Positions 3,307 through 26,360 of a DNA stretch of 33,822 bases are shown here, in pieces. Position numbers and translations under genes: made by a program. How positions within the stretch are numbered: the stretch's first letter is position 1; every line of letters starts with the position of its first letter. Source of the stretch: an uncultured Alphaproteobacteria bacterium (GTDB lineage Bacteria > Pseudomonadota > Alphaproteobacteria > Micropepsales > Micropepsaceae); contig CAIYRG010000426.1 in NCBI GenBank assembly GCA_903928515.1, forward strand, positions 1 through 33,822. The letters are read 5' to 3'. A model generated the notes under the pieces. That model searched no databases. It was not told the DNA's origin and saw only the letters and a list, made by a program, of their open reading frames with translations.

Positions 3307-3350
3307 GCTCCGGCAAAAGTGATCAGCATTTCATCAGGAAGGAACGCACA

Positions 3351-4214
3351 ATGATTGATACGAGCAACTATCCCTTTCCGCCGAAGGCCACCACGACGCC
3401 GAATTGGCCGATGGGCCCGAAGGAAGCCGGCCTCGAGTTCGTCGAGCTGTCGCATCCGTGGGGTTTGGGCCAACCGTGCTGGCCGTATTTCGAAGACGTG
3501 AAGATCGAGCGCCTGCACTCGATGTCGAAGAGCCGCGTGCTGACGCAGCGCATCACCACCGTGATGCACTCCGGCACGCATCTCGACGTGCCCGCGCACG
3601 TCGTCGAAGGCACGCCTTACTTGCACGAAATTCCGCTGCAGCAATTCTTCGGCACCGGCGTTGTGGTGTCGATCCCGAAGGGCAAGTGGGGCGTCATCAC
3701 CGCTGACGATCTCGAGAAGGTCACGCCGAAGATCGAGAAGGGCGACATCGTGATGGTCAACACCGGTTGGCATCATCACTACGCCGACAGTGCACAATAT
3801 TACGCGTACTCGCCCGGCTTCTATAAGGAAGCCGGCGAATGGTTCGCTGCCAAAGGCGTGAAAGCTGTCGGCACTGACACGCAGGCGCTCGACCATCCGC
3901 TCGCCACTGCCATAGGCCCGCACGGCCCTGGCGCGCCGAACGGCCTCTGCCCCTGGGCCTGCGAAGAATACAAGCAGGAGAAGGGCCGCGACGTGCTGCA
4001 GGACTTCCCGGAATGGGAACCGTGCCATCGCGCGATCCTGTCGAAGGGCATTGTCGGCTTTGAAAATGTCGGCGGCGACATCGACAAGGTGACCGGCAAG
4101 CGCGTGACCTTCGCCATGTTCCCGTGGCGCTGGGTTGGCGGCGACGGTTGCATCGTCCGCATCGTGGCGATCACCGATCCGAAGGGCACCTATCGCATCG
4201 AATCCGGCAAGTAA
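3351..4214 (+). CDS. Cyclase family protein (kynurenine formamidase / isatin hydrolase-like metal-dependent hydrolase)
   Basis: Metal motif HSGTHLDVPAHV, GVKAVGTDTQALDHP; ATG 3351 preceded by aaggaacg ribosome-binding site. Confidence 0.85.
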   Translation: MIDTSNYPFPPKATTTPNWPMGPKEAGLEFVELSHPWGLGQPCWPYFEDVKIERLHSMSKSRVLTQRITTVMHSGTHLDVPAHVVEGTPYLHEIPLQQFFGTGVVVSIPKGKWGVITADDLEKVTPKIEKGDIVMVNTGWHHHYADSAQYYAYSPGFYKEAGEWFAAKGVKAVGTDTQALDHPLATAIGPHGPGAPNGLCPWACEEYKQEKGRDVLQDFPEWEPCHRAILSKGIVGFENVGGDIDKVTGKRVTFAMFPWRWVGGDGCIVRIVAITDPKGTYRIESGK

Positions 4215-4236
4215 GCCGGTTCAAAAGGAGGCGAGC

Positions 4237-4584
4237 ATGCGGATCACGCGTTTCGCAGAAGCACCGACATACAATCCGCCGCTGCACACCGGTGTGCAGT
4301 GCAAGCGGCTTCAGGGCCATGAGGCGGGACCGACCGAGAAATTCTGGGTCGGCCTCTCCGTCTATCCCCCCGGAAGCTCGGCGGATGAAAGCACGACCGG
4401 CGAGGAGACCATCTACACGGTTCTCGACGGCGAGCTGGTGCTGCGTTCGGACGGACAGACGCAAACCCTGCGCAAGCTGGATTCCGTGCATTTCAAGAAA
4501 GGCGAGGTGCGTGCCGTAAAGAACGAAAGTTCGGCAGACTCCACGCTCCTCGTCTCCATCGCCATCCCCCAGACCGTCAAATAA
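4237..4584 (+). CDS. Cupin domain protein
   Basis: Small single-domain protein with GEETIYTVLDGELVLRSDGQTQTLRKLDSVHFKKGEVRAVKNES; aaggaggcgagc RBS before ATG 4237. Confidence 0.8.
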   Translation: MRITRFAEAPTYNPPLHTGVQCKRLQGHEAGPTEKFWVGLSVYPPGSSADESTTGEETIYTVLDGELVLRSDGQTQTLRKLDSVHFKKGEVRAVKNESSADSTLLVSIAIPQTVK

Positions 4585-4599
4585 TCAGGTCGTAAAATA

Positions 4600-5415
4600 A
4601 TGAGCGCAGTCATCACGGTGGCCCCGACCGGGCCTATCGCCACCACGGCGGACAATCCCAATCTGCCGACGCAGCCGCATGAGATCGCGGATGCGGTGTT
4701 CGAGGCCTATCAGGCCGGCGCCACCGTGGCGCATCTGCATTTGCGCGACGAAGAGCAACGCCCCACGGCGAATCTCGATGTCGCCAAGCGCACTATGGAT
4801 TTGATCCAACAGCGTTGCCCGATCCTCATTCAGCTTTCGACCGGCGTTGGTCTTTCGGTCTCGTTTGAAGATCGTGAGAAGATGGTCGAGCTGAAGCCGC
4901 GTATGGCCACGCTCAACCCCTGCTCGATGAGCTTCGGCATGGGCGAGTTCCTGAACCCGCCCAAGGGCGTTCGCCGCCTGGCCGCGCGCATGCGCGAATT
5001 GAACGTGAAGCCGGAGTTGGAAATCTACGACACCGGCCATCTCGACGCCTGCATGAAGCTGTACGACGAAGGCTTGCTGCCCGATCCGCTGCAATTCTCC
5101 ATCGTGCTCGGCGTGCAGGGCGGTGCGGCCGCCACGCCGGACAATCTGCTGTTGATGGTGCGCCGTTTGCCGCCGGGTGCGATCTGGCAAGTCATCGCGG
5201 TGGGCCGTAACAACCTCCAGCTCACGGCCATTGCCTTGGCTTTGGGCGGCAATGCGCGTGCGGGCCTCGAAGACACGCTCACACTTCGCAAAGGCGTGGC
5301 CGCGACGAACATCGAACTCGTGAAGCGCGCCGTGCAGCTCGCGAAAGACCTCGAAGTGCCGATCTCCACGGTCGAAGAGGCCGAGAAGCGACTGCAATTG
5401 CCGAAGCAGCTTTAA
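4600..5415 (+). CDS. DUF849 / beta-keto acid cleavage enzyme (BKACE) family
   Basis: VAPTGPIATTADNPNLPTQPHEIADAVFEAYQAGATVAHLHLRDEE, LSTGVG, GMGEFLNP, LGVQGGAAATPDNLLLMVR, GLEDTLTLRKG. Confidence 0.88.
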   Translation: MSAVITVAPTGPIATTADNPNLPTQPHEIADAVFEAYQAGATVAHLHLRDEEQRPTANLDVAKRTMDLIQQRCPILIQLSTGVGLSVSFEDREKMVELKPRMATLNPCSMSFGMGEFLNPPKGVRRLAARMRELNVKPELEIYDTGHLDACMKLYDEGLLPDPLQFSIVLGVQGGAAATPDNLLLMVRRLPPGAIWQVIAVGRNNLQLTAIALALGGNARAGLEDTLTLRKGVAATNIELVKRAVQLAKDLEVPISTVEEAEKRLQLPKQL

Positions 5416-6946: not shown

Positions 6947-7846
6947 CTATTTCGTCAGTGTTTCAACGAACTCGCGCACGATGTTCGACGCCGGCAAATG
7001 ATAGGCGCAGCGGATTTGCAGCATCGGCGCCGATTTTCCAAATTCCTTGGTTTTCAACTTCAGCGCCACCAGCGTTCCCGCTTTCAACTCTTCGGCGACA
7101 TTGAAGGCCAGCATGCAGGCGATGCCCGCACCGTGGCGCGCCAACTCGCGCACGCTTGCGAAATCCTGCGCCTCCATTGCAATTGTGTATTCGTCCAAGC
7201 CCATCTTTTTCAGGATGGCGTCGCTCATGCGGAAATGGCGCGAGTTCTTCAACCCCGTCACGAACGGATGCGCCGCCAGATCGACAGGCGCGACATCGGT
7301 CTTCGCCGCCAGCGGATGGCGCGGCGAGACGACAAGCAGCATCGGCTCGCGCCGCAACAGCTTTGTGTGCATCTGGCGGTCCGGCCCCGACGCCACCAGG
7401 AAGCCGACATCGACGCGGCGCTCTCGCACCTTCGCCAGCACGTTCTCCAGCGTATCGGTGTGCGTGACGAAGCGCGTGCCCGGATGCGCGGCTGCAAATG
7501 AAGTGAGCAGCGGCGGCAGATAATATTGGGCGATGTCACGCTGTGCGGCGATGACGATCTCGGTCTGGTCCTTGGCGCGCAATTTGGTGAGTGCGGCGTC
7601 CGCCTCGCCGGATTTGCGTAAGAGATCGACCGCATAGGCATAAAGCGTCTCGCCCGCAGGCGTCAGCCTCGGCTTTGCGCCCCGCTGCCTATGGAACAAC
7701 GGCTGCCCGGCCTGGCGCTCCAGTGCGGTGATATGGGCCGAGACCGACGGCTGGGCGATGTTCAGCTTCTCGGCAGCCACATTGAAGCTGCCCGCATCCA
7801 CCACGGTCTTGAACACATTCAGGCGGCGGGGGCTGGCCGAGATCAC
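6947..7846 (-). CDS. LysR family transcriptional regulator
   Basis: N-terminal HTH RRLNVFKTVVDAGSFNVAAEKLNIAQPSVSAHITALERQAGQPLFHR, followed by a substrate-binding-type domain; divergent from hyuA. Confidence 0.93.
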   Translation of the reverse strand: MISASPRRLNVFKTVVDAGSFNVAAEKLNIAQPSVSAHITALERQAGQPLFHRQRGAKPRLTPAGETLYAYAVDLLRKSGEADAALTKLRAKDQTEIVIAAQRDIAQYYLPPLLTSFAAAHPGTRFVTHTDTLENVLAKVRERRVDVGFLVASGPDRQMHTKLLRREPMLLVVSPRHPLAAKTDVAPVDLAAHPFVTGLKNSRHFRMSDAILKKMGLDEYTIAMEAQDFASVRELARHGAGIACMLAFNVAEELKAGTLVALKLKTKEFGKSAPMLQIRCAYHLPASNIVREFVETLTK

Positions 7847-7881
7847 TGAGGCTCCTTGGCCTCAACATATAGCCAAATAGC

Positions 7882-7894
7882 TTCATTCATGGAA
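7882..7894. promoter_or_regulatory. Candidate LysR box (T-N11-A) in the divergent LysR/hyuA intergenic region
   Basis: TTCATTCATGGAA: interrupted dyad TTC-N7-GAA with T-N11-A spacing, within cttcattcatggaag (7881-7895), between the LysR start (7846) and hyuA start (7974). Confidence 0.35.
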
Positions 7895-7973
7895 GCCAGT
7901 TGGGCCGTTGCTTGAACCCGTCCACCCATGGCCCAATGCCGCAAATAACAAAGATTTTGGGAGGATTCGGCGA

Positions 7974-10010
7974 ATGCTCGTAGTCGCGATCGATATTGGC
8001 GGCACCTTCACCGATTTGATGGGCTTCAACGACAAGACCGGCGAATTCGTCGACGCCAAAAGCCTGACGACGCCCCAGCACCTCGTGCAGGGCATCATCG
8101 ATTGCATCCGCAAATGCGGCATCGATCCCTCGGGCATCAATGAGCTGCTGCACGGCTCCACCACCGCCATCAACACGCTGATCGAGCGAAAAGGTGCCAA
8201 GACCGGCCTGATCGTCACCAACGGCACACGCGATGTGTATTTGATCGGCCGCGGCAATCGCCCCGAATCCTACAATCTATTCTTTCATCGCCATGAGCCG
8301 CTGGTGGCGCGCCGCCTTACGCGCGAAGTGAACGAACGCATGCTCGCCTCGGGCGAAGTGTTCGAACCGTTGAACGCGAGCAGCGTGGAAGATGCGTGCA
8401 AGGTGCTGGCCGAGGAAGGCGTTGATGCCGTCGCTTTGTGCTTCCTGCATTCCTATGTGAACCCTGAGCACGAGAAGCAGGCCGGCGAGATCGTCCGCAA
8501 GATGCTGCCCAACGCCTATCTCTCGCTCTCTCACGAAATCCTGCGCGAATATCGCGAGTTCGAGCGCGTCTCCACCACCATCGTGAACGCCTATATCGGC
8601 CCCACCGTCGGCGGCTATGTGCGCACGCTGGAAAAGGGCTTGGGCGATATCGGCTTCAAGGGCGACCTCACCATCATGCGCTCGAACGGCGGCGTGATGA
8701 GCCCGGAGATCGCCACCATGCGCCCGGTGGCGATGATGGAATCCGGCCCTGTCGGCGGCATCATTGCGGCGGCGCAAGTGGGCCAAACGCTTGGCTTCCC
8801 GAACACGATCTCGTTCGACATGGGCGGCACCACGGCCAAAGCCAGCCTCATCAAGGACGGCGAACCCACCATGGCACCCGGCTATTACGTCGGCGGTTAT
8901 GCGAGCGGTCACCCGGTGATGGTGCCCGTGGTCGATCTGGTGGAAGTCGGCGCGGGCGGCGGCTCTATCGCGTGGATCGACGAAGTCGGCGCGTTGAAAG
9001 TCGGCCCGCATTCGGCCGGTGCCGAGCCCGGCCCCATTTCTTATGGGCGCGGCGGCACCGAGCCCACGATCACCGATGCCAACGTGGTGCTGGGCCGTCT
9101 GGACCCCGACAATTTCCTCGGCGGCGACATGAAATTGGATGCCGCCGGAGCCGCGAAAGGCATCGAAGAAAAAAACGCGAAGCCCTTGGGCCTTTCCACC
9201 GTGAAAGCGGCGCAGGCCATTCTCGATATCGCGATTTCGAAAATGTCGCTGGCGGTGCGCGAAGTGTCAGTCGCCAAAGGCTATGACCCGCGCGATTTCG
9301 CCCTTGTCGCCTCAGGCGGCAATGGCGCCATGCACGTCATCGCCATCGCGCGTGAGCTGCATATCCCCACCGTCATCGTGCCGCTGTTCCCGGCGCATTT
9401 CTCCGCACTCGGCATGATCGTGGCCGACGAGCGGCACGATCTGATCCGCACGCATTTCACCGATCTGTCGCAGCTCGATTTCGCCAAACTGATCGTCGTC
9501 TACAAAGAGATGATGGCCGAAGCCCAAGCCAGCCTGCGCCAGAAGAACGAGGTGGAATATCAGTGCCATCTCGATCTGCGTTACGTCGGCCAAGAGTTCA
9601 CTCTGCCGATCCCGGTGACGCTGGGCATGATGGAAGCGGGTGATCGCGCCACCATCCGCAACGCCTTCGACCAGATGTATGAGCGCCGCTACGCCAACAA
9701 CTCGCCCACCGAACCGGTGGAGCTGGTCAACATCCGGCTTTTTGTCGTGGGCAAACGCCCGCACATGAATTTCCCGACGCTGCCGAACAAAGGCGTACCT
9801 TCCCCCACCCATCACCGCGACGTATATTTCGCCGATGCCTCAAAAGCGCTGCGCTCGCCTGTCTATCAACGCGCAGATTTGGGGCCGGATGTGGCCTTGC
9901 AGGGACCGGCGCTGATCCAAGAGCGCGGCACAACGACCGTTCTTTTCGAAGGCGATACGCTGAAAATGGCGCCCTCGGGCGAGATGATTATCACGGTAGG
10001 AGGCAAATAA
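7974..10010 (+). CDS. hyuA: Hydantoinase/oxoprolinase family protein, subunit A (HyuA-like)
   Basis: MLVVAIDIGGTFTDLMGFNDKTGEFVDAKSLTTPQH, LLHGSTTAINTLIERKGAKTGLIVTNGTRDVYLIGRGNRPESYN, FDMGGTTAKASLI, VEVGAGGGSIAWID. ATG 7974 preferred over 7908. Confidence 0.93.
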   Translation: MLVVAIDIGGTFTDLMGFNDKTGEFVDAKSLTTPQHLVQGIIDCIRKCGIDPSGINELLHGSTTAINTLIERKGAKTGLIVTNGTRDVYLIGRGNRPESYNLFFHRHEPLVARRLTREVNERMLASGEVFEPLNASSVEDACKVLAEEGVDAVALCFLHSYVNPEHEKQAGEIVRKMLPNAYLSLSHEILREYREFERVSTTIVNAYIGPTVGGYVRTLEKGLGDIGFKGDLTIMRSNGGVMSPEIATMRPVAMMESGPVGGIIAAAQVGQTLGFPNTISFDMGGTTAKASLIKDGEPTMAPGYYVGGYASGHPVMVPVVDLVEVGAGGGSIAWIDEVGALKVGPHSAGAEPGPISYGRGGTEPTITDANVVLGRLDPDNFLGGDMKLDAAGAAKGIEEKNAKPLGLSTVKAAQAILDIAISKMSLAVREVSVAKGYDPRDFALVASGGNGAMHVIAIARELHIPTVIVPLFPAHFSALGMIVADERHDLIRTHFTDLSQLDFAKLIVVYKEMMAEAQASLRQKNEVEYQCHLDLRYVGQEFTLPIPVTLGMMEAGDRATIRNAFDQMYERRYANNSPTEPVELVNIRLFVVGKRPHMNFPTLPNKGVPSPTHHRDVYFADASKALRSPVYQRADLGPDVALQGPALIQERGTTTVLFEGDTLKMAPSGEMIITVGGK

Positions 10011-11764
10011 TGGCCGCTCAGCTCGATCCCGTTACGCTGGAAGTCATCCGCAACGCCCTGCCCGCCGTGGCCAATGAAATGGCCGTGGATCTGCAGCGCA
10101 CCTCCTACAACATGATGATCTACGAGGTGCGCGACTATTGCACCGCGTTGGTCTCGGTAGAGGGCGAACTCATCAGCCAGAATGTCGGCGGCGTGTCGCA
10201 TTTCGTGGCCGATCTCGGCGTCATCATCGTCGATGGCGTGAAGCGCTACGGCCGCGATGGCTTCAAGCCTGGCGATGTCATTATCACCAACCACCAGGCG
10301 GTGGCGGGCCAGCACCTGAACAACATCGTCATCTACGTGCCCTATTTCTATCAGGGCGAGTTGATGATGTTCTCGATGGTGCGCGCCCACTGGATTGATA
10401 TCGGCGGCACTTCCACCGGTTTCGGCGCTGGGCCCGAAGTGCCCGATCCGTGGCAGGAAGGCCTGCAGCTCGATCAGATCAAGATTTACGAAGACGGCAA
10501 GCTGAACGACACGATCTGGCGCATCATCCGCGACAACATCCGCTTTCCGGAATCCTCGCTCGGCGATTTGCGCAGCCAAGTCGCCGCGTGCCGTTTGGGC
10601 GTGCGCCGCACCGACGAGCTGTTTCAGAAATACGGCAAACAAACCGTTCTCGCCGCCATCCAGCACATCTTCGGCGAGACCGAACAGAAATGCCGCAACG
10701 TCGTGTCGCAACTGGCCGATGGCGTGTACGAAGCCGAATCTTCCTTCGACGATGACGGCGTGGCATTGGGCGAGAAAATCCGTCTGCATGCCAAAGTCAC
10801 TGTCAGCAAAGGCTCGATGACCATCGATCTTTCCGGCTGCTCGAAGGAACGTAAGGCGGCCATCAATTCGCGCACATTGGCGGGCGCACGCGTGGCTTAC
10901 AAAGCGTTGACTGCACCTCTGGAGCCCGTGAACGAAGGTTCGTTCCGCGCCCTCGATGTGATCATTCCCGAAGGCAGCATCATGATGGCGCGCTACCCTG
11001 CGCCGATGGCGCAGTGGAGCATGATCGTGCCGTGCGTTGTGGAAACCATCGTCACCTCGCTCGCCAAGGCGATGCCGGACAAAATTCCCGCAGCGCATCA
11101 CGGCCTGCTTGGCGGCGCGCTGGTGTTCTTCGGCGTGAACCCGAAAACCAAACGCCGCTTCATCGTGCAGAGCATCGAAGGCGGCGGCTGGGGCGGGCGT
11201 CCGGGCGAAGACGGCCAATCCGGCACCGTGTCGGTGTGCCAGGGCGACGTGCGCAACGGCTCCATCGAAGGCATCGAGATGAAATGCCCGGTGGTGATCC
11301 AGAAGCGCGGCCTGCGCAAAGATTCTGGCGGTGCGGGCAAGCATCGCGGTGGCCTGGGCATTGAGGTTCAAGTGAAGAATTTCGTCGATGGCAAATGGAT
11401 GTTCGAATCCGCGCATCGCGAGGGCTGCCCGGCCTGGGGACTGTGGGGCGGCGGTTCGGGCCAACTCGGCGGCTATGAACTGCGTGAAACCGACAAGAAC
11501 GATTTCCGCAAAGTCGAGGGCAGCCGCTTCGTGCCGGCGCAATCCGAAGCCGTGCTGCAAACCGGCGGCGGCGGCGGCTGGGGCGATCCCTTCGAACGCG
11601 ATGCGGAGAAAGTCCGCTGGGACGTGCGCGAGGATTTCATCTCTGTGGAAGCCGCGCGCGAAAAATATGGCGTGGTGTTGAAGGGCGATTTGTCTGTTGA
11701 CGCCGCCGCCACCGATACGCTGCGCAAATCTCGCGTGAAGACGCCAGCACCGGAATTACACTGA
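10010..11764 (+). CDS. hyuB: Hydantoinase B/oxoprolinase family protein (HyuB-like)
   Basis: LDPVTLEVIRNALPAVANEMAVDLQRTSYNMMIYEVRDYCTALV, GGWGGRPGEDGQSG, GGGGGWGDPFERD; start overlaps hyuA stop (TAATG). Confidence 0.93.
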   Translation: MAAQLDPVTLEVIRNALPAVANEMAVDLQRTSYNMMIYEVRDYCTALVSVEGELISQNVGGVSHFVADLGVIIVDGVKRYGRDGFKPGDVIITNHQAVAGQHLNNIVIYVPYFYQGELMMFSMVRAHWIDIGGTSTGFGAGPEVPDPWQEGLQLDQIKIYEDGKLNDTIWRIIRDNIRFPESSLGDLRSQVAACRLGVRRTDELFQKYGKQTVLAAIQHIFGETEQKCRNVVSQLADGVYEAESSFDDDGVALGEKIRLHAKVTVSKGSMTIDLSGCSKERKAAINSRTLAGARVAYKALTAPLEPVNEGSFRALDVIIPEGSIMMARYPAPMAQWSMIVPCVVETIVTSLAKAMPDKIPAAHHGLLGGALVFFGVNPKTKRRFIVQSIEGGGWGGRPGEDGQSGTVSVCQGDVRNGSIEGIEMKCPVVIQKRGLRKDSGGAGKHRGGLGIEVQVKNFVDGKWMFESAHREGCPAWGLWGGGSGQLGGYELRETDKNDFRKVEGSRFVPAQSEAVLQTGGGGGWGDPFERDAEKVRWDVREDFISVEAAREKYGVVLKGDLSVDAAATDTLRKSRVKTPAPELH

Positions 11765-12744
11765 TGCCCAAGCTCACACTCTCATTCGCCTGCGGCGATT
11801 ATGAGATCATGCGGCCTCTGGTGGATGGCCGCGTGCAGCCTGACGGCATCGAGCTGATTTGCATCACCACGGAATCGCGCGAGCGGCACGCCCGCATGGC
11901 GCGCGAATTCCAGTTCGATGTCTGCGAATACAATGTCGGTTCGTACTTCATGGCGCGCGAGCGCGGCCTGAAATTGACCGCCATTCCGGTTTACGGCCAT
12001 CGCCGTTTCCGCCATGGCTTTGCCTTTGTGAACACAAACGCCGGTATCAAGGCGCCAAAGGATTTGATCGGCAAACGCGTGGGCGGGCCCAGCTTCGCGC
12101 CTGCGGGCTCCATTTGGCTCCGCGGCATCTTGGAAGAACATTACGGCGTGCCGCATCGTGACATGACCTGGGTTGTGGAGCGCGGCGAAGATGTGGATTT
12201 CACACCCCCGCCGGGATTGCGCATCGAACGCATCACGTCCGGCAAACCCGTCGACCAGATGCTGGCCGACGGCGAAATCGATGCGATGATCACACCCGAC
12301 ATTCCGCCCGTGTTCCTGAAAGGCGATCCGCGCGTCGTGCGTCTGTTTCCCGATTATCAGGCGGAAGAACGCAGTTATTTTCAGAAGACCGGCATCTTCC
12401 CGATCATGCACGTCACCGCGATCAAGCAAGAGGTCGTGGACAAGCATCCTTGGGTGCCGATGAATCTGATGAAGGCATTCGAGCAGGCCAAGGCGATGGG
12501 CTACAAGCGCACCGCCAATCCGCGCACGTTGCCGCTCGCGTGGGGCCGCGATCTTTGGGAAAGCGAGCGCGCATTGCTCGGCCCCGATCCCTGGGCTTAT
12601 GGCCTCGGCGAAAAGAACCGCAACAATCTCGAAACCCTCGCGCGCTATCTGCACCAGCAGGGCTTGGTCAAGACGCTGCCCAAGCTCGACGACGTATTCG
12701 AGAATGCCGAATTGAAAGACATGGGCTCCGAGGGAGGGCTTTGA
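11764..12744 (+). CDS. 4,5-dihydroxyphthalate decarboxylase-like protein (periplasmic-binding-protein fold, no signal peptide)
   Basis: LTLSFACGDYEIMRPLVDGRVQPDGIELICITTESRERHARMAREFQFDVCEYNVGSYFMAR, LPLAWGRDLWESERALLGPDPWAYGL; TGATG overlap with hyuB. Confidence 0.75.
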   Translation: MPKLTLSFACGDYEIMRPLVDGRVQPDGIELICITTESRERHARMAREFQFDVCEYNVGSYFMARERGLKLTAIPVYGHRRFRHGFAFVNTNAGIKAPKDLIGKRVGGPSFAPAGSIWLRGILEEHYGVPHRDMTWVVERGEDVDFTPPPGLRIERITSGKPVDQMLADGEIDAMITPDIPPVFLKGDPRVVRLFPDYQAEERSYFQKTGIFPIMHVTAIKQEVVDKHPWVPMNLMKAFEQAKAMGYKRTANPRTLPLAWGRDLWESERALLGPDPWAYGLGEKNRNNLETLARYLHQQGLVKTLPKLDDVFENAELKDMGSEGGL

Positions 12745-13862
12745 TGAATCTCGCGCAACGGCGTGAGGCCATCCGCAAACAGATGGCCGCCGAAGGGCTC
12801 GATATGCTCTTCGCTTTTCACGACGGCACGCATTTCATCGAAAAGCCCGATCCCGTCACCATCCTCTCAGGCTTCAAGAGCATGGGCGATTGTGTGGCGG
12901 CGCTGCCGCGCGAAGGCGAGCCCATACTTCTGGTGAGCCCGGCCTGGGATGCCGAGCGCGCCAAGGATATGGCGCCGGGTTTCAAGATTCTGCCGGTAGA
13001 CCAGATCGTGCCGGTACTGCCCGACGTGCTGGAGAAATTGCGTATCCCGCCGGGCCGCGTGGGGCTCGCAGGGCTCTCGGAATTGTCCTGGCAATACGGC
13101 ATCCAGATCAGAGCCGTGCATGGCGGGCAAGCGCGCATGGCGGATTCACTGCTCGCTGCGCACGCCAAGCGCAAGACGGACGACGAGATCGCAAACGCGC
13201 GCGAAGCCGTACGCATCGCCGAATTGGGTTACGCGCATTTCCTGAAGATCGCGCGCACCGGCATGACCGAATACGAACTCGCCGCCGAAATCCGCTGGCA
13301 CACAAAGACGCTCGGCGCCGACGACAATTTCTTCCTGATGTGTGCCTCGCCACACAACCGCGCGGTGCAGCCTTCAAGCGGCCGCAAGCTGGAAGCCGGT
13401 GACATCATCCTGGCAGAGATCACGCCGTCATATCGCGGGCAGTTGGCGCAAATCTGCCGCACGGTTTCGGTGGGCGAGCCATCGGATGTGTTGAAGACAA
13501 AATACGCGTTGGTGGTGGATGCCATGGAGCACGGCATTGCCGTTGCCAAACCCGGCACGGCAATGTCATCGGTATGCGATGCCATCAACAAGGTGTTGGA
13601 GGCCGAAGGCTACGGCGAGTATTGCCACCCGCCTTATATCCGCCGCCGCGGCCATGGACTGGGCTTTGCTTCGATCCTTCCCGGCGATGTGGCGCTCGAC
13701 AACACAACCATTCTCGAACCCGGCATGTTCTTCGTGATCCATCCCAACCAATATCTGCCCGAGACCGGATATCTGCTGTGCGGCGAGCCCACGCTCATCA
13801 CTGAAAACGGCCCGGAGCCGCTCACCAAAACGCACGCCGCTTTGGCGCAGATCGAAGCGTAA
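12744..13862 (+). CDS. M24 (pita-bread) family protein, Xaa-Pro peptidase-like with substituted metal ligands
   Basis: MNLAQRREAIRKQMAAEGLDMLFAF, RKTDDEIANAREAVRIAELGYAHFLK, RRRGHGLGF, LEPGMFFVIHPNQYLPETGYLLCGEPTLIT; TGATG overlap with upstream gene. Confidence 0.8.
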   Translation: MNLAQRREAIRKQMAAEGLDMLFAFHDGTHFIEKPDPVTILSGFKSMGDCVAALPREGEPILLVSPAWDAERAKDMAPGFKILPVDQIVPVLPDVLEKLRIPPGRVGLAGLSELSWQYGIQIRAVHGGQARMADSLLAAHAKRKTDDEIANAREAVRIAELGYAHFLKIARTGMTEYELAAEIRWHTKTLGADDNFFLMCASPHNRAVQPSSGRKLEAGDIILAEITPSYRGQLAQICRTVSVGEPSDVLKTKYALVVDAMEHGIAVAKPGTAMSSVCDAINKVLEAEGYGEYCHPPYIRRRGHGLGFASILPGDVALDNTTILEPGMFFVIHPNQYLPETGYLLCGEPTLITENGPEPLTKTHAALAQIEA

Positions 13863-13865
13863 CCC

Positions 13866-15011
13866 ATGCAAACGATGCACCCCACGCTTTTGATCGGCGC
13901 TTACGATTGGGATTCCGAGCGCTTCCCGAAATCCGAATTCGCCGAACGCATTGATGCGTTGTGGAAGACACTCAGCCCGGCCGTGGCGGGCGTGCTGATC
14001 TATGCCGATCCGCGCCACAATGGCGAGCTTGCCTATTTCACCAATTACATTCCTCGGCTGGAACCCGCGCTGGTGCTGATCCCGCGTAAAGGTGATCCTA
14101 TCATGCTGCCGAGTGATCCGCCTTCGATGTGGTCGTCCGCCAAGCGCGTGACCTGGATCGAGAATTTCGTGCCGCTTCGGCAAGCCGATAAGTCGTTATC
14201 CGAATGGCGCAAGGGCCCGACGGGCGGGCCTGTGACCACATTCGGCTTCAACGCCATGCCGCCCGCTTTGCACCGTGCCATCGCCATCGCGCTGGGCGGC
14301 ATCGCGCTGCCTGACGCCACGGCCGCCGCGCGCAACCTGATGCGCCGCAAACGCCCGCGCGAATTGCAGGCCCTGCGCGAAGCCGCCGCCATCTTGCAGA
14401 CATGCGCCGATGCCTTGATTGCCACCGGTGCGATTCTGGAAGCCGAACACGCCGGCCTGAAAGCCGGCGCGCAAGATGTGCGGATACTTTACAGTGTCGA
14501 CAAGGGCCGCACGCTGCGTCCCTTCTCCGACATTTCAGGCGCCAAGTCTGATCCGCTGCTCGCCTACATCGCCATACGCCATGCGGGGTATTGGGCCGAT
14601 GGTTTTGTGACCGCGGCATCCAAACCCGGCCCATTGCAAACGAAACTCGCGGACGCCCTGCGCGCTGTTGTTTCCAAGGCAAAAGCGGGCGCCACGCTGC
14701 ACACGCTGGCAGCGGAGAATCCGTTGCCACCGCATGCGATGACGAAATCCACGCTCGGTTGCGTGCTGGGCTTGGGGCTGGAAGACGAACCGCTCTCCTT
14801 CGTGGCGCAGGTGGGAACCGAAACCTCCTTTGGTAGCGCACTGGGCCTTGGCCCGAAAGATTCGCCCGCATCAAGCCAGAGCAGCGCGTTGGAAGAGGGC
14901 GCGGTCTATTCTTTGCGCATCGGCGCCTCGCAAGACGGCAACCATGCGTTGGCATCCGCCATCGTGCTGGTCGGCAACGAGGCCAGCGAAATTCTTTGGA
15001 CGTCGCCGTGA
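13866..15011 (+). CDS. Highly divergent M24-like protein (probable non-peptidase paralogue)
   Basis: N-terminal creatinase/prolidase-like half (FAERIDALWKTLSPAVAGVLIYADPRHNGELAYFTNYIPRLEPALVLIPRKGDPIMLPS), RRKRPRELQALREAAAI, and GYWADGFVTAASKPGP; adjacent to the other M24 gene. Confidence 0.65.
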   Translation: MQTMHPTLLIGAYDWDSERFPKSEFAERIDALWKTLSPAVAGVLIYADPRHNGELAYFTNYIPRLEPALVLIPRKGDPIMLPSDPPSMWSSAKRVTWIENFVPLRQADKSLSEWRKGPTGGPVTTFGFNAMPPALHRAIAIALGGIALPDATAAARNLMRRKRPRELQALREAAAILQTCADALIATGAILEAEHAGLKAGAQDVRILYSVDKGRTLRPFSDISGAKSDPLLAYIAIRHAGYWADGFVTAASKPGPLQTKLADALRAVVSKAKAGATLHTLAAENPLPPHAMTKSTLGCVLGLGLEDEPLSFVAQVGTETSFGSALGLGPKDSPASSQSSALEEGAVYSLRIGASQDGNHALASAIVLVGNEASEILWTSP

Positions 15012-16348
15012 CGGCACCAAAAGCGGCAATCGAACGCCTTGCAGAATTTCTCTGCCGCCCCGGCATCGCTGCTGCTGCGCCCGATCTTTTACGCCGCCAC
15101 ACCGTAGATATCGCGGGGGCTTGGCTCGCAGGCTCGGCCATCCCGGAAGGCCACGCGGTTTCGCAATTCTTTGGCAGCGACTCGCTAGGCGATCTTCTCG
15201 CGGCCAATGTCGCCGCCGCGCGCTCCAGCGAGATCGACGATATCCATCTGCCTTCGCTCACCACGCCCGGTGCAGCAATCGTCGTCTGCGCCCTCACGAT
15301 TGCCGCGAGGCATGAGGGCGTCGCAGGTAACGATCTCGCCGATGCAATCGCAGGCGGCTATGAGGCGCTAATCCGCCTGGGCCTCGCCATCGACGGCGCG
15401 ACCGTTTCTTCGCGCGGCATATGGCCGACCTATTTCGCGGCCCCCTTCGGCGCAGCGGCGGTCGCGGCGCGACTGTTGAAACTCAGTCCGGCCCAAACCG
15501 CGCACGCGCTGGCGATGACCATCACCATGGCCTCACCCAGTGCGGGCCATCAGCACGGGCCGCTCACCTCACGCTGGCTCGCCTTCGGCCTCGTGGCGCG
15601 CAACGGTCTGACGGCGGCGCAAGCCGCACAAGCAGGCTTCCTTGCCGATCCCGACATTCTGGAAAGCAATTTCCTGAATGCCGCCTACGGCATCAAACCC
15701 GACATTTCCGCCTTCACCCACAACCTCGGACAGCGCCTCGCCATCGAAGATCTTTCCTTCAAGCCATGGTGCGCGGCGCGCCAGACCATCGCCGGCGCGC
15801 AAGCGATGCGTGAGCTGATCGCACAAGGCATCGTGCCTTCGGAAATCGAAGCGTGCGAGATCGCCATCCCACCGCTGCACGTGAAGATGGTGGATCACGG
15901 CGTGCATCCGGGTGACCGCACCTCGCATCTCACCAGCCTGCCCTGTCAGGTCGCACAAGCAGCACTCAACCCCGATAGCGCGATGGATGTGGCGCAGACG
16001 CCCGGCGAAACGCCCGCGCCCATCGCCGCTTTGATGCGCAAAATCACCGTGCACGGTGATGACAGCTTTATGGCGGCCTACCCGAAAGCCTGGCACGCGC
16101 GCCTCACCCTTCACACCAAGAAGGGCACGCACGAGCGCACAATTGCGGCGGTGCCCGGCGATCCCGCGCGTCCCTTCGACGACACCCGGACCCGCCAAAA
16201 ATTCTTAGACCTCACGACCCCTGTTTTGGGCGAAACGGGCGCGAACGAAGCCCTTGCGATAGTTTGGAACGTGTTGAATAACCCTGAGAACGCAAAAATC
16301 ATTCTAAACACCGCATCACAGGCACAGAAAAGGAAGCGTGGCTTATGA
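15008..16348 (+). CDS. MmgE/PrpD family protein
   Basis: HTVDIAGAWLAGSAIPEG, EIDDIHLPSLTTPGAAIVVCAL, IAGGYEALIRLGLAI, GIWPTYFAAPFGAAAVAARLLKLSPAQTAHALAMTITMASPS, FKPWCAARQTIAGAQAM. GTG 15008 overlaps the upstream stop (GTGA). Confidence 0.88.
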   Translation: MTAPKAAIERLAEFLCRPGIAAAAPDLLRRHTVDIAGAWLAGSAIPEGHAVSQFFGSDSLGDLLAANVAAARSSEIDDIHLPSLTTPGAAIVVCALTIAARHEGVAGNDLADAIAGGYEALIRLGLAIDGATVSSRGIWPTYFAAPFGAAAVAARLLKLSPAQTAHALAMTITMASPSAGHQHGPLTSRWLAFGLVARNGLTAAQAAQAGFLADPDILESNFLNAAYGIKPDISAFTHNLGQRLAIEDLSFKPWCAARQTIAGAQAMRELIAQGIVPSEIEACEIAIPPLHVKMVDHGVHPGDRTSHLTSLPCQVAQAALNPDSAMDVAQTPGETPAPIAALMRKITVHGDDSFMAAYPKAWHARLTLHTKKGTHERTIAAVPGDPARPFDDTRTRQKFLDLTTPVLGETGANEALAIVWNVLNNPENAKIILNTASQAQKRKRGL

Positions 16349-17325
16349 AGGGCAAGATCGCCGTCGAAGAACATTTTGCCCTTCCCGATATGGAGGTCGC
16401 GAAAGCCAACGGTTTCCGCCCCGAATATCTCGCCAACGTTCTGAAGCGCCTGCCCGATCGCGTGCAGCGCCTGGAAGTGATGGATGAAGTCGGCATCGAA
16501 GTCTCGCTGCTCTCGCTCACCGAACCCGGCACGCAAGGCATCATCGACAAGAAGAAATCCATCGAACAAGCCCAGCGCATCAACGATTGGCTCGCCGAAT
16601 ATTTCGTGAAGTGGAATCCCAAGCGCTTCCAGGGCCTGGGTGTCGTGCCGATGCAAGACCCGGCCGCCGCTGCGCGCGAACTCGAACGCATGGTGAAAGA
16701 TCTCGGCCTGAAGGGCACGATGATCAACGGCTTCTCCAACATCGGCGAAGGCGACGAGATCATGTATCTCGACGAAAAACCGTGCTGGGAATTCTGGGCC
16801 GCCGCCGAGCAGCTGAACGTCCCCATCTCGCTGCATCCGCGCGTGCCATTGCCCAGCCAGCGCCGCTCGATGAAGGATTACGACGTGATCCGCGGCTCTC
16901 TCTGGGGCTTTGGCCGCGAGACCTGCGAGCACGCCATCCGCCTGATGCTGTCGGGCGTGTTCGATCAATATCCCAAAGCCATCTGCGTCTTGGGCCATCT
17001 GGCCGAAGGCCTGATCTTCGCATTGCCGCGCATGGATGCGCGCATGCGCTATCAGGAGCCGGGCACGCATGGCGCACACAAGCGCATGCCGACCGAATAT
17101 TTCCGCGACAATTTCATCATCTCGACCAGCGGCATCACGCACACGCCGGCGATGCACAACGCGCTGATCGAAATCGGCGCGGACAAGCTGATCTTCGCGG
17201 TCGATTATCCGTTCGAATCCTCACACGAAATCTGCGCCTGGTTCGACGCGTTCCCGATCAACGAGGACGACCGTCTCAAGATCGGCCGTCTGAACGCCGC
17301 GAAATACTGGCACATCGCGCTGTAA
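16345..17325 (+). CDS. Amidohydrolase-family decarboxylase, gamma-resorcylate / 2,3-dihydroxybenzoate decarboxylase-like
   Basis: MKGKIAVEEHFALPD (E8, H10 metal positions), VPISLHPRVPLPSQRR, AIRLMLSGVFDQYPKAICVLGHLAEGL, EIGADKLIFAVDYPFES; ATGA overlap with the PrpD gene. Confidence 0.85.
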   Translation: MKGKIAVEEHFALPDMEVAKANGFRPEYLANVLKRLPDRVQRLEVMDEVGIEVSLLSLTEPGTQGIIDKKKSIEQAQRINDWLAEYFVKWNPKRFQGLGVVPMQDPAAAARELERMVKDLGLKGTMINGFSNIGEGDEIMYLDEKPCWEFWAAAEQLNVPISLHPRVPLPSQRRSMKDYDVIRGSLWGFGRETCEHAIRLMLSGVFDQYPKAICVLGHLAEGLIFALPRMDARMRYQEPGTHGAHKRMPTEYFRDNFIISTSGITHTPAMHNALIEIGADKLIFAVDYPFESSHEICAWFDAFPINEDDRLKIGRLNAAKYWHIAL

Positions 17326-17354
17326 ATCACCGCGTTTCAGACAGGGGATCAGCC

Positions 17355-18041
17355 GTGATCGACCGGAGAACGATGCAATGGGTCGCGATATTTGTGGCAA
17401 CCCTGGCAGGCGTTTTCGCGTATTCGGCCACCGCCCAAACACAGACGGACGGCTTGGACGCAGCAACGCGCGACAATCTCCAAAAGTTGGTCGCTGATCC
17501 GGTGCATCAAAAGGCAATCCGCGACGAATCGATTTCCGGTTTTCTTCTCGTTTCCGCCTGCATGACACCGCCAATCGATTTCATGCTTTCGGACAATGTT
17601 TCTTCTTATGCGCCGCTGAAAATCGATGTTGACGGCAAAATACAATCAGGCGTTTTGGTTGAACATGGAACGGTGTCTGGCTGCGGCACGCAGCTGATTG
17701 TCAATATCCTCACCGTCAAAGATAAGGACGCAAATCATTCCGTGTTTGGAATGCCAGGCTCGACGCTTGCCGATCCTATCTTGGTACACGACACAATCGG
17801 GTATGTTTATCGCGCGGCGATCCGCAAGGTTGGCGAATGCAAGACTGTTCGCGTCGTGAATACCCAGTTCGTCGAATTCTTCGGTGAACCCAATCCACAA
17901 GCCAAATTTCAAAAGAATAGCGGCCGTGCGTGGCGGGAGATTTGGACACTCGATATTTGCCGCCAGCAGAAAGTCGATGTCCCAGTGGAGTACATCCCCG
18001 ATGCCACCGGCACGACCATCAGCGTTCGCGCCATTCCGTAG
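17355..18041 (+). CDS. Hypothetical exported protein
   Basis: N-terminal signal peptide MQWVAIFVATLAGVFAYSATAQTQ; start either GTG 17355 or ATG 17373. No family recognised. Confidence 0.65.
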   Translation: MIDRRTMQWVAIFVATLAGVFAYSATAQTQTDGLDAATRDNLQKLVADPVHQKAIRDESISGFLLVSACMTPPIDFMLSDNVSSYAPLKIDVDGKIQSGVLVEHGTVSGCGTQLIVNILTVKDKDANHSVFGMPGSTLADPILVHDTIGYVYRAAIRKVGECKTVRVVNTQFVEFFGEPNPQAKFQKNSGRAWREIWTLDICRQQKVDVPVEYIPDATGTTISVRAIP

Positions 18042-18393: not shown

Positions 18394-18485
18394 GAACATC
18401 GGTAGACCGGCACCACAAGAACCGGCAATCGATCAAACTGGCGCGGCGGGTTTCCCGCCGCGCTTTTCTTATGTTCGTACCACCT

Positions 18486-18681: not shown

Positions 18682-20916
18682 ATGGTCGCAACAGGAATTT
18701 CCCGTCGTCATTTCGTGGTGAGTGCGTCCGCGCTCTCAGGCGGACTTGCGCTCGGCGTCAGCACAAAACTCGCAGCAGCAGCGCCCGCCGGCCCTGCCGT
18801 GCATTATTGGGGCCCGGACGCAGCCGAGCCGCGCGAAGTCACGGCATGGGTCTCCATCGCGCCCGACGATATCGTGACATTCCGCTTCGCCATCGGAGAA
18901 GTCGGCCAAGGCTCCTCGACCGGCTGGTCAATGCTGCTGACGGAAGAATTGGAATGCGAATGGTCGAAGGTGCGGTTCGAATGTGCCTCCGCCAATCGCA
19001 ACCTCGCGGGCAAACCCTACGGCACCATCGTCGGCGGCGCGGATAACGGCATCCGCATCTATTGGGCGCTGGTACAGCAGGCCGGAGCATCGGCACGCGC
19101 ACGCTTGATCGCGGCGGCCGCGAAACGCTGGAACGTGGCCGATGCCGATTGCTACGCAGCCAAAAGCAAAGTCTTTCACAAGCCTTCCGCGCGCTCGTTC
19201 CGCTTCGGCGAACTCGCACCTGAGGCTGCCGCTATCGTTCTGGCGAAAGAGCCGGACATCAAACCACCGGAACAATACAAAATCGTCGGCACGCGCCTGC
19301 CGCGCCTCGACACAGCGATCAAGGTCGATGGCTCGGCCGTGTTCGGCCCGGACGTTCGTTTGCCGGACATGCTCTATGCCTCGGTGATAATTTGCCCGGT
19401 GTTCGGCGGCAAGCTCGTTTCCGCCGACGAGACGTCGATCCAAGGCCGTCGCGGCATCGTGCAAGTGGTGAAGCTCGACAATGCGGTCGCCGTGGTCGCC
19501 GACAATTATTGGCGCGCCAACGAAGCATTGAAGGCGCTGAAAATCGTTTGGGATTTCGGCGCGAACGGACACGCCAACAGCGCGCAATACCGCAAGGATT
19601 ACCTCGCAGCACTTGATGCGCCGCAGACGGTCGCGTGCGACATCGGCGATGCCAAGGCCGAATTGGCCAAAGCTGCCAATGTCCTCACCGCCATCTACGA
19701 AGTGCCGCTGCTCTCGCACTCACCGTTGGAAACACCCAATGCGACGGTGCATTTGCAAGCTGACCGGCTCGATGTCTGGATGGGCACGCAGGTCGCCGAC
19801 CGCTTCCTGCAGATGGGTTCGCAGATCACCGGGCTGAAGCCGGAGCAGGTGTTCATCCACAATTGCTATGTCGGCGGCGGCTTCGGACGACGCGGCCCGC
19901 CGGGCGACGATATTCGTTACGCGCTGCTGGTGGCGAAAGCTGTCGGCCATCGTCCCGTGCAAACGTTGTGGACGCGCGAAGAAGACACGCGCAACGATCA
20001 CTATCGCCCGCAAGCTGCGATCCGCCTTAAAGGTGCGCTCGACGCGCAAGGCAATCTTTCCACCTTCCACGCGGAAACCGCGGTGGCGTCCTTGATGGCC
20101 AGCATCACCGGCAAGCCGGTGGAAGGCGTAGAAGTGCATGCGGTGGACGCGCTGGTGCCGGAACGCGAAGACGTGAATTTTATCTCCACGCCGTATAACC
20201 GCATTCCACACCGCTATACGGGGCAAGTGTTGAAGAACACGCATGTGCCTGTGGGCTTCTGGCGCTCGGTGGGCGGCTCCCAAAACGGCTTCGCGCTGGA
20301 AAGCTTTCTTGACGAGATGGCGCACATGGCAGGCAAGGACCCTTTCGCATTCCGCCGCGCCATCACCGACCGTGCCGATGTTCTCACGGTGCTGAAGTTG
20401 CTCGAAGAGAAAAGCGATTGGAACAAGCCGCTACCGAAGGGGCGTGGGCGCGGGCTGGCGCTGATGGAAAATCACGCGTCATTGATCGGACAAGTTCATG
20501 AGGTGACGGTTTGCGATAGTGGCGTGCTGAAGGTCGACAAAGTGACCGCCGTCATCGACACCCACCACATCGTCAACCCGAAGCTGGTCGAAGCCCAAGT
20601 GCAGGGCGGCATCATGTTCGGGCTCTCCGCCGCACTGTATGGCGAGATCACCATCAAAGACGGTGCGGTCGAGCAAGGCAATTTCGACAGCTACCAAATG
20701 GTGCGGCTGGCCGATTCACCAGACGTGGACGTGCATTTCTCGCTGTCGGGAGGATTGGATCGCGATGGCAAACCGCGCTGGGGCGGTGCCGGCGAATGTG
20801 CCGTGTCGCCGGTGGCGCCGGCTGTGGCCAACGCGATCTTCGCGGCCACCGGCAAACGCATTCGCATGCTGCCGATCAAAAATACAAAGCTGACGACTGC
20901 GCTGGCGAATAACTGA
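18682..20916 (+). CDS. Molybdopterin-binding oxidoreductase, isoquinoline 1-oxidoreductase beta-subunit-like (IorB), Tat signal, copy 1
   Basis: ISRRHFVVSASALSGGLALG Tat signal; EVTAWVSIAPDDIVTFRFAIGEVGQGSSTGWSMLLTEELECEW; CYVGGGFGRRG; FWRSVGGSQNGFALESFLDEMA; GGAGECAVSPVAPAVANAIFAATG. Confidence 0.92.
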   Translation: MVATGISRRHFVVSASALSGGLALGVSTKLAAAAPAGPAVHYWGPDAAEPREVTAWVSIAPDDIVTFRFAIGEVGQGSSTGWSMLLTEELECEWSKVRFECASANRNLAGKPYGTIVGGADNGIRIYWALVQQAGASARARLIAAAAKRWNVADADCYAAKSKVFHKPSARSFRFGELAPEAAAIVLAKEPDIKPPEQYKIVGTRLPRLDTAIKVDGSAVFGPDVRLPDMLYASVIICPVFGGKLVSADETSIQGRRGIVQVVKLDNAVAVVADNYWRANEALKALKIVWDFGANGHANSAQYRKDYLAALDAPQTVACDIGDAKAELAKAANVLTAIYEVPLLSHSPLETPNATVHLQADRLDVWMGTQVADRFLQMGSQITGLKPEQVFIHNCYVGGGFGRRGPPGDDIRYALLVAKAVGHRPVQTLWTREEDTRNDHYRPQAAIRLKGALDAQGNLSTFHAETAVASLMASITGKPVEGVEVHAVDALVPEREDVNFISTPYNRIPHRYTGQVLKNTHVPVGFWRSVGGSQNGFALESFLDEMAHMAGKDPFAFRRAITDRADVLTVLKLLEEKSDWNKPLPKGRGRGLALMENHASLIGQVHEVTVCDSGVLKVDKVTAVIDTHHIVNPKLVEAQVQGGIMFGLSAALYGEITIKDGAVEQGNFDSYQMVRLADSPDVDVHFSLSGGLDRDGKPRWGGAGECAVSPVAPAVANAIFAATGKRIRMLPIKNTKLTTALANN

Positions 20917-20929
20917 AGCGCTAGCCCTT

Positions 20930-21096
20930 CACCATGGCCGCCCTCCGAGGCGGCCACCCAGCAGGCGCGCAATCGCGCGCCAATAACTCTTCTAGGCTCG
21001 CAGACGCTCGCCCCGCGCGGCTTCGCCGCGCAATGAAAATAAGAAGATCGGCGCGCTAAGCGTGCCGTGGGTGGCCGGGCGTGACCCGGCCATGGT
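20930..21096. repeat. Composite palindromic intergenic repeat, family A copy 2 (longer, diverged)
   Basis: caccatggccgccctccgaggcggccacccagcaggcgcgcaatcgcgcgcc...cgcagacgctcg...gggtggccgggcgtgacccggccatggtcg; same architecture as 18486-18602 with a longer interior. Confidence 0.85.
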
Positions 21097-21101
21097 CGAG
21101 T

Positions 21102-21656
21102 TTAATTTGGCAACAAATAAATCTGTCCGCGGATTTCGCCATCACGATACAGATCCGTGTGGATGTCGATGTAGAACTGTCCGGCGAGCAATTCCGCGGC
21201 CTGCTCCGGCGTCAACATCAGCGTGCCGCTATAGGGGCCAACATGGCTCGGCTCGTCGCCGATCGGCAATGTCGCGATCACCGGCGCACCCGATTGCAGC
21301 GTGCCGGGCCCGTGAATATCGACGACATTCACCGGCGTCGTCAGCGCGTCGAACGCCAATGAATATCCCAACATTCGGGTTTGATCGTCGAAGGTGAATC
21401 GGCCTGTGCCATACCCCGGCATGCTGGTCGGCGGCGTGCCATCCTGTGTACGCAGCGTTGCGGCAAGGGTGAATGTCCGAGCCTGCACGTCTGACGACGG
21501 GCCGCAAAAAACCACGGCCAGAAAAACGGCCATACTTTGTAAAAGGGTGCGGCGGGAGAGGCGGATAGTACGGTCCTCATATGAACGGCCTGCATGAAAA
21601 TTGCCGCGAAAACCGGGGTTCCGCCAGCCTTCTTTTGGTTCTTTCCAAACTGCCAC
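21102..21656 (-). CDS. CHRD domain-containing exported protein
   Basis: RLSRRTLLQSMAVFLAVVFCG signal; FTFDDQTRMLGYSLAFDALTTPVNVVDIHGPGTLQSGAPVIATL; LTPEQAAELLAGQFYIDIHTDLYRDGEIRGQIYL. Exact start uncertain. Confidence 0.85.
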   Translation of the reverse strand: MAVWKEPKEGWRNPGFRGNFHAGRSYEDRTIRLSRRTLLQSMAVFLAVVFCGPSSDVQARTFTLAATLRTQDGTPPTSMPGYGTGRFTFDDQTRMLGYSLAFDALTTPVNVVDIHGPGTLQSGAPVIATLPIGDEPSHVGPYSGTLMLTPEQAAELLAGQFYIDIHTDLYRDGEIRGQIYLLPN

Positions 21657-21712
21657 CTGTGCTAAGAAAGTAGCAGTAGAACAGCCCCTTAGAGAGGCCT
21701 CAGGAGGTCACA

Positions 21713-22165
21713 ATGGTCGCTTTGAAAATCAACGGTCAGCTTCATCAGCTCGATATCGAGCCGGATATGCCGCTGCTCTGGGCCATTCGTAACGAGATTG
21801 GCCTGACGGGCACCAAATATGGCTGCGGCATCGCGCAATGCGGTGCCTGCACCGTGATTGTCGACAACCAGCCTGTGCGCTCCTGCTCCCTGCCCGTGTC
21901 GGGCGCAGAAGGCCACGACATCACGACCATCGAAGGCCTCTCGCCGAAAGGCAAACTGCATCCCGTGCAAGCCGCCTGGGTGGCCGAAGATGTGCCGCAA
22001 TGCGGCTATTGCCAATCCGGCCAAGTGATGGCCGCCGTGGCGCTTTTGAAGCAGAAGCCGAAGCCCACGGACGAAGACATAAATACGATCACCAATATCT
22101 GCCGCTGCGGCACCTATGTGCGCATCCGCAAGGCGATCCATCGCGCCGCCGGCCAGAAAGCTTGA
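21713..22165 (+). CDS. iorA: (2Fe-2S)-binding oxidoreductase small subunit, isoquinoline 1-oxidoreductase alpha-like
   Basis: Plant-type and helical 2Fe-2S cysteine motifs: [19 protein letters not shown]...SC and QCGYCQSGQ...[15 protein letters not shown]. Confidence 0.93.
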
Positions 22166-22179
22166 GGCGGGAGAGAACC

Positions 22180-24405: not shown

Positions 24406-24430
24406 ACCCTTTCATCGCGTGATATTTCAG

Positions 24431-24472: not shown

Positions 24473-24528
24473 GACTACAAATTTCGAGCAAAAGCGCCGG
24501 TGAAGGCGCGCGTTTGAAGGGGGACATC

Positions 24529-26337: not shown

Positions 26338-26360
26338 GGCTTAGCGTCCTACAAAAATAT

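Follow-up and report, generated by a model that had tools for sequence, protein, structure and literature searches.

An operon of a Micropepsaceae bacterium with a rare HyuA-HyuB-M24-M24-like-PrpD core and altered active sites: a candidate route for cyclic amides or N-heterocycles

What might an operon do when it encodes enzymes of familiar families, several of which have replaced the residues on which those families rely? This question is raised by seven adjoining genes (o1 to o7, positions 7974-17325) on contig CAIYRG010000426.1 of an uncultured alphaproteobacterium of the Micropepsaceae (assembly GCA_903928515.1); the whole 33,822-nucleotide stretch is referred to here as the window. An earlier note, made from the letters alone, had described a coupled HyuA-HyuB-decarboxylase-M24-M24-PrpD-amidohydrolase operon whose combination of families it did not recognise as a described pathway, and our literature searches likewise turned up no pathway that combines them. 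Our analysis indicates that five of the genes, together with a divergent LysR-type regulator gene, form a core that is kept in the same order on megaplasmids of Neorhizobium galegae, a distantly related legume symbiont, and that the active-site substitutions common to the window and N. galegae are a new observation beyond that note.

All seven open reading frames (ORFs) are intact and lie on the + strand, next to a regulator gene that was absent from the gene list of the earlier note. The features are as follows.

6947-7846, - strand: LysR-type regulator gene, divergent from o1 (Pfam LysR_substrate and HTH_1)
7847-7973: intergenic region between the LysR gene and o1, 127 bp, presumed control region (from sequence)
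7974-10010, + strand: o1, HyuA-type ATP-binding subunit, 678 aa (Pfam PF05378/PF01968/PF19278)
10010-11764, + strand: o2, HyuB-type subunit, 584 aa (Pfam PF02538)
11764-12744, + strand: o3, NMT1-fold, 4,5-dihydroxyphthalate-decarboxylase-like (Pfam NMT1; solved relative 9jp7)
12744-13862, + strand: o4, M24-fold protein, 372 aa (Pfam PF00557/PF01321, the latter the Creatinase_N domain)
13866-15011, + strand: o5, highly diverged M24-like protein, 381 aa (profile match, model, N. galegae counterpart)
15008-16348, + strand: o6, MmgE/PrpD protein, GTG start (Pfam PF03972/PF19305)
16345-17325, + strand: o7, amidohydrolase-2 of the gamma-resorcylate/2,3-dihydroxybenzoate decarboxylase group (match to 2dvt)

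The junctions o1/o2, o2/o3 and o3/o4 are 1-nt overlaps (TAATG, TGATG and TGATG), o4 and o5 are separated by 3 nt (13863-13865), and 4-nt overlaps join o5 to o6 (GTGA, with the GTG start) and o6 to o7 (ATGA), which bears out the six junctions claimed before. Purine-rich ribosome-binding sequences precede o1, o2, o4 and o7, with a weak one before o3, and the G+C content (GC) is even over o1-o7 (0.60-0.63; 0.71-0.80 at third positions). These seven tightly packed, co-directional genes form one real operon, and the LysR gene is likely its regulator. A consensus scan, which is little informative for such an organism, found no sigma-70-like promoter between the LysR gene and o1, and the window contained no tRNA or Rfam features. 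The families assigned earlier held for o1, o2, o4, o6 and o7 and, by NMT1 together with 9jp7, for o3.

Protein searches of plasmids revealed that megaplasmids of N. galegae hold together the best matches to o1, o2 and o4 and a good match to o6. This uncharacterised cluster lies on pHAMBI540a (NZ_HG938354.1, 964556-976276) and is also present on NZ_HG938356.1 and CP090555.1. Strain HAMBI 540 carries, in this order, LysR (divergent)-HyuA-HyuB-M24-M24-like-PrpD-NMT1 substrate-binding protein-ABC ATPase-two permeases-amidohydrolase, with identities to the window of 34% for LysR, 47-48% for HyuA, 46-47% for HyuB, 32-33% for M24, 24% for the M24-like protein and 31% for PrpD. Its genes are likewise closely spaced, with 4-nt gaps at HyuA/HyuB and HyuB/M24 and 4-nt overlaps at M24/M24-like and M24-like/PrpD. 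Since the gene order is conserved in N. galegae, the core LysR-HyuA-HyuB-M24-M24-like-PrpD is a real but rare module. In strain VafX2 (locus L108, 11983-17152) HyuB, M24, M24-like and PrpD are annotated as split ORFs, unlike in HAMBI 540, reflecting either decay or sequencing errors.

Parts of the core were also observed in the genus of the window. The genome G003 carries ABC ATPase-two permeases-HyuA-HyuB followed by the start of an M24 gene that resembles the one of N. galegae, before its contig ends, and G005 carries importer-HyuA-HyuB at a contig end. On the latter contig (C301; locus L189, 932-7610) a gene that reads as a PobA-like, 4-hydroxybenzoate-3-monooxygenase-like flavin monooxygenase faces away from these genes, a neighbour that may hint at an aromatic substrate. 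The genome screens covered samples of each group. Neither o5 nor close relatives of o6 were found in the same-genus genomes screened, nor was o4 as far as they were screened, and a scan of genome contigs with o5 gave no relative. When 84,980 genomes were scanned with o1 under narrow patterns, 55 HyuA loci came up, all at 43% identity or less and without o3-o7 arranged in sequence, apart from M24 genes near HyuAB in three Bacilli, while the o4 and A2 screens of 385 class and 399 phylum genomes, in which few candidates were scored per genome, returned only the window. The threshold of the first screen (1e-60) would miss a copy as distant as that of N. galegae. The check for conserved co-occurrence suggested in the earlier note thus had a mixed outcome: the order of LysR, HyuA, HyuB, M24, M24-like and PrpD was recovered, while the complete set of seven did not turn up in any other of the genomes and plasmids screened, so that fewer than seven genes make up the conserved unit.

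The two genes left outside the core encode the candidate decarboxylases. The o3 protein has no evident signal peptide and is homologous over its full length to 4,5-dihydroxyphthalate decarboxylase (9jp7, residues 1-313, E 1e-54), its only strong solved relative. Neither the operon nor the scanned ORFs of the window yielded a phthalate-pathway gene (Rieske dioxygenase or dihydrodiol dehydrogenase). Because HyuB and M24 directly adjoin in N. galegae and G003, o3 is an accessory gene. The o7 protein aligned over its full length with the gamma-resorcylate decarboxylase 2dvt (E 8e-80) and keeps E8, H10, H164 and D287, which we take to be the metal ligands of 2dvt, as expected for this group and in support of its earlier proposal as an aromatic-acid decarboxylase candidate; it is probably accessory too. 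Two candidate counterparts were rejected: the N. galegae amidohydrolase as an ortholog of o7, with only 24% identity over part of its length, and the relatives of o3 in S. terangae and S. mexicanum (53%) as members of the same cluster, their neighbours being an aldolase, an amidohydrolase and oxygenase components. NMT1-fold genes resembling o3 number about 6-13 per genome in the same-genus genomes G001-G006 and are almost absent from the other genera of the family.

It is possible, though doubtful, that two modules are merely juxtaposed, with HyuAB-M24-M24-like-PrpD forming an amide pathway and o3 and o7 being unrelated decarboxylases gained locally, without a common substrate. The insertion of o3 between genes that adjoin elsewhere and the low identity of the N. 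galegae amidohydrolase to o7 would fit such a history, as would the o3 family itself, which is multicopy in the genus and whose copies inspected in G001-G006 had varied neighbours, none being found beside HyuAB. On the other hand, o3 and o7 are coupled to the operon through 1-nt and 4-nt overlaps, and NMT1-fold and amidohydrolase-2 genes also stand beside the N. galegae core, suggesting functional replacement rather than unrelated cargo.

The first core enzyme belongs to a superfamily that includes both hydrolases and carboxylases. The A subunit of ATP-dependent hydantoinases/oxoprolinases is marked by the ASKHA ATP motifs DxGGTxTD, DxGGT and GxxPGP (PMC8453981), all of which are intact in o1 (DIGGTFTD at 7-14, DMGGT at 282-286 and GAEPGP at 349-354). 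The hydantoinase branch is further encoded by two genes, A then B, without a gamma subunit (PMC5214803), and in the operon o1-o2 are followed directly by the NMT1-like o3. Because of this two-gene AB order without a gamma subunit, o1-o2 most likely belong with the hydantoinases rather than with the carboxylases, though the metal site of o2 departs from the canonical one: caprolactamase and its relatives bind metal via Asp/Glu-His-Asp-His (PMC8453981), while the tetrad of o2 reads D42-H102-N105-H127, with Asn as the third ligand. Among aligned distinct HyuB homologs, DHDH occurred in 68 rows, DHNH in 7 full-length rows (the clade of the window) and DHHH in 5. The Asn is found also in N. galegae, G003, G161, G390 and G392, and in the HyuB tree the window groups with N. 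galegae and G003 (99% in the Shimodaira-Hasegawa-like approximate likelihood-ratio test, SH-aLRT), the other three lying further out. A His takes this position in a sister clade comprising a paralog from the same genome as the window (contig C466), G002, G003, Microvirga and Comamonadaceae. The loci of this sister clade, named HLNH, are L118 (8312-12177, on C466 of G000), L111, L109, L122 and L127; in Microvirga and Comamonadaceae a small ORF follows HyuB, accompanied by tripartite tricarboxylate transporter genes and, nearby, a gene for fumarylacetoacetate hydrolase.

With the NCBIfam caprolactamase models o1 scored 525 bits and o2 268 bits, below the equivalog cut-offs of 1000 bits each, which places them outside CapAB proper. 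Weaker matches to the acetophenone carboxylase subunits (302 bits for o1 and 108 bits for o2) bring in a different reading, in which HyuAB is an ATP-dependent carboxylase resembling acetone or acetophenone carboxylase, and a carbonyl compound is carboxylated, then isomerised and decarboxylated. The shared superfamily, an altered ligand showing that HyuB departs from the standard hydrolase site, and the conserved-position small ORF of the HLNH clade would all agree with this. We nevertheless regard it as distinctly unlikely, given that neither the window nor N. galegae has a gamma-subunit gene, that gene order and subunit sizes fit the hydantoinase branch (PMC5214803), that the caprolactamase scores are far higher, and that the small ORFs lack the four-Cys pattern.

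The M24 pair departs further from its family. At the canonical M24 ligands D,D,H,E,E, o4 reads E225, Q236, H304, H333 and G347, so that four of five are replaced; the M24 protein of N. galegae has the identical pattern E,Q,H,H,G, and neither protein retains the PHG-segment His. The o5 protein had no Pfam or NCBIfam match of its own, and none of the canonical metal ligands could be recognised in it. A two-sequence profile matched prolidase at E 7e-6, and a model of medium confidence (predicted local distance difference test, pLDDT, 58) reached a template-modelling (TM) score of about 0.6 to prolidases, a fold match that is not independent because M24 rows were in the input alignment; a single-sequence AlphaFold model was unusable (pLDDT 36). 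The N. galegae counterpart, 24% identical to o5, has a recognisable Creatinase_N domain. Taken together, the profile, the model and this domain suggest that o5 is related to the M24 fold, and it may be the partner of o4. The two M24-fold proteins of the earlier note are thus confirmed by Pfam for o4 and made plausible by profile and model for o5. The absence of a metal pair need not preclude catalysis, as creatinase and the ectoine hydrolase DoeA are M24 folds that cleave C-N bonds without one.

In o6 both MmgE/PrpD domains scored above the Pfam cut-off of 32.1 bits (89.1 and 62.7 bits), and the best solved match in a single-sequence search was IDS-epimerase. A catalytic His has been proposed for the whole family (His99 of IDS-epimerase and His103 of cis-aconitate decarboxylase, CAD; PMC12290011, PMC11814083), and residue mapping to IDS-epimerase places Thr86 of o6 at this position. 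The Thr is found also in N. galegae and Allorhizobium ampelinum, while all other aligned homologs have His. At the equivalents of IDS His85 and His150 o6 carries Arg and Trp; the equivalent of Lys266 is kept, and the Lys198 position is less certain. On pAtS4e of A. ampelinum (L114, 11911-14887) the Thr-type PrpD gene overlaps a gene resembling 3-(3-hydroxyphenyl)propionate hydroxylase and lies near a maleylacetate reductase gene, a context consistent with ring catabolism; the Thr-type gene is also present on several Agrobacterium vitis plasmids.

The window and N. galegae thus share the change of Asp to Asn in HyuB, the replacement of four of five M24 ligands and the change of His to Thr in PrpD. 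Since such distant lineages keep the same substitutions, we infer a changed function rather than decay, and family names alone become an unsafe guide to the chemistry: reading the operon as a lactam hydrolase with peptidases and a methylcitrate dehydratase is unsafe. The same residues could instead mean that the M24-like and PrpD-like proteins are pseudoenzymes with a binding or scaffold role, leaving catalysis to HyuAB and the decarboxylases, as the lack of recognisable ligands in o5, the single one of five kept in o4 and the Thr of o6 would allow. This is rather improbable, because two distant lineages have preserved the same replacements (E,Q,H,H,G at the ligand positions of o4, Thr in o6), conserved residues such as the motifs GHGLG and HPN are still present, suggesting maintained function rather than decay, and creatinase and DoeA set a precedent for M24 folds working without the metal pair.

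The provenance of the contig was also considered. The metagenome-assembled genome (MAG) comprises 3.09 Mb in 524 contigs, the window being contig 426, with a completeness of 90% and a contamination of 5.4%. These figures, and the absence of o4, o5 and close o6 relatives from the same-genus genomes as far as screened, would be expected if the contig were foreign or mis-binned and uninformative on the genus. This is very unlikely: the GC of the operon (0.614) matches that of the window (0.609), and two same-genus genomes (G003 and G005) carry HyuAB of the same clade.

We propose that the genes form a LysR-regulated catabolic operon in which the conserved core uses ATP to open and process a cyclic amide or N-heterocycle, alongside added aromatic-acid decarboxylases, a reading to which we give about an even chance. 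HyuAB would activate a cyclic amide (lactam, imide or oxo-N-heterocycle) with ATP and hydrolyse it. By analogy with creatinase and ectoine hydrolase, o4 and o5 would break another C-N bond with no need of the metal pair typical of M24 enzymes, perhaps as a heteromer in which a catalytic M24 fold is joined by a degenerate one, and o6 would carry out a proton transfer, hydration or isomerisation of the carboxylated open-chain product. Ring carboxylates would be removed from a hydroxylated aromatic or heteroaromatic acid by o7, and probably by o3, for which reason a carboxylated ring is the probable substrate in the window. The place of the decarboxylases would be taken in N. galegae by an ABC importer and a non-orthologous amidohydrolase. 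The order of the steps is a guess.

This proposal is supported by the junctions, the synteny in N. galegae with its regulator and similar coupling, the importer-HyuAB arrangement of G003 and G005, the HyuB clade, the AB order, the intact ATP motifs of o1, the intact ligands of o7 and the PrpD context in A. ampelinum. Several observations weigh against it. Mutation of each metal ligand of CapB to Ala abolished activity (PMC8453981), while in HyuB one of these ligands is changed from Asp to Asn, so that the lactam opening suggested in the earlier note agrees with the ATP motifs and gene order but is weakened at the metal site. The o4/o5 pair and o6 have lost residues thought to be catalytic and could be non-enzymatic or do unrelated chemistry, which weakens the case for catalysis by the M24-fold pair in particular. 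As N. galegae lacks o3 and any clear ortholog of o7, conservation of the core does not extend to the decarboxylation part; the identities of o4-o6 to N. galegae are low (33%, 24% and 31%); and the case draws on a single MAG contig and few copies of the core. Going further, HyuA-HyuB(Asn)-M24-M24-like-PrpD(Thr) might be a rare, dispersed ATP-driven N-heterocycle module, with the M24 proteins acting as a metal-free heteromeric C-N hydrolase, PrpD working without the catalytic His, and the substrate being a heterocycle not yet known to be degraded in this way; we offer this tentatively, as something that could be so but on balance probably is not.

If the core is a pathway, it would be an additional way of breaking down cyclic amides or N-heterocycles, with a testable copy of the cluster in N. 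galegae, a culturable organism. All MmgE/PrpD proteins are predicted to share a His-based enolate mechanism (PMC12290011), to which a Thr-type PrpD would be an exception, and an Asn-type HyuB probes the range of metal-site variation in ATP-dependent hydantoinases. Automatic labels such as hydantoinase, aminopeptidase P or MmgE/PrpD would mislead on these enzymes.

The surroundings of the operon hold further genes. Soon after o7, on the same strand, a small ORF within 17322-18041 encodes a protein that is without Pfam matches and probably carries a signal peptide; this ORF may belong to the operon. Positions 18440-18464 form a strong hairpin resembling a terminator. The downstream region (18682-33296) is rich in catabolic genes, encoding three molybdopterin-binding subunits (18682-20916, 21838-24405 and 29889-32279, the first two with unusual domain layouts), a PepX/S15 hydrolase (24445-26337), a UbiD decarboxylase (27595-29118), an enoyl-CoA hydratase (29137-29928) and a 3-hydroxyacyl-CoA dehydrogenase (32373-33296). 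Upstream of the LysR gene (2769-5415) are genes for a putative cyclase (PF04199) and a beta-keto acid cleavage enzyme (PF05853).

Compared with known systems, o1-o2 resemble CapAB of Pseudomonas jessenii (PMC8453981) and the hydantoinase/5-oxoprolinase branch in their two AB subunits, ATP motifs and D-H-x-H metal residues, and differ in the Asn ligand, in scores under the caprolactamase cut-offs and in their neighbours, which are an aminotransferase and a dehydrogenase in the caprolactam pathway and M24, PrpD and decarboxylase genes in the window. The o4 protein shares the fold of creatinase, DoeA and prolidase and has the HGLG histidine, but neither it, with its replaced ligands and missing PHG-segment His, nor o5 shows the metal site of that family. 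Like 2-methylcitrate dehydratase, cis-aconitate decarboxylase, IDS epimerase and methylsuccinate isomerase (PMC12290011), o6 has both Pfam domains, and the Lys266 equivalent, but it differs from them in Thr86, Arg and Trp at the positions given above. The likeness of o3 to 4,5-dihydroxyphthalate decarboxylase is one of overall homology, and the neighbouring genes of that pathway are missing; o7 has the four ligands of gamma-resorcylate decarboxylase (2dvt, 3s4t) at identical numbers, whereas its operon is not a resorcylate cluster. The N. galegae cluster has no gene between HyuB and M24, places an NMT1-type ABC importer after PrpD and ends in an amidohydrolase-2 gene only distantly similar to o7, but it shares with the window the divergent LysR gene, the five-gene order, the tight junctions, an amidohydrolase-2 gene at the end and the same substitutions in HyuB, M24 and PrpD.

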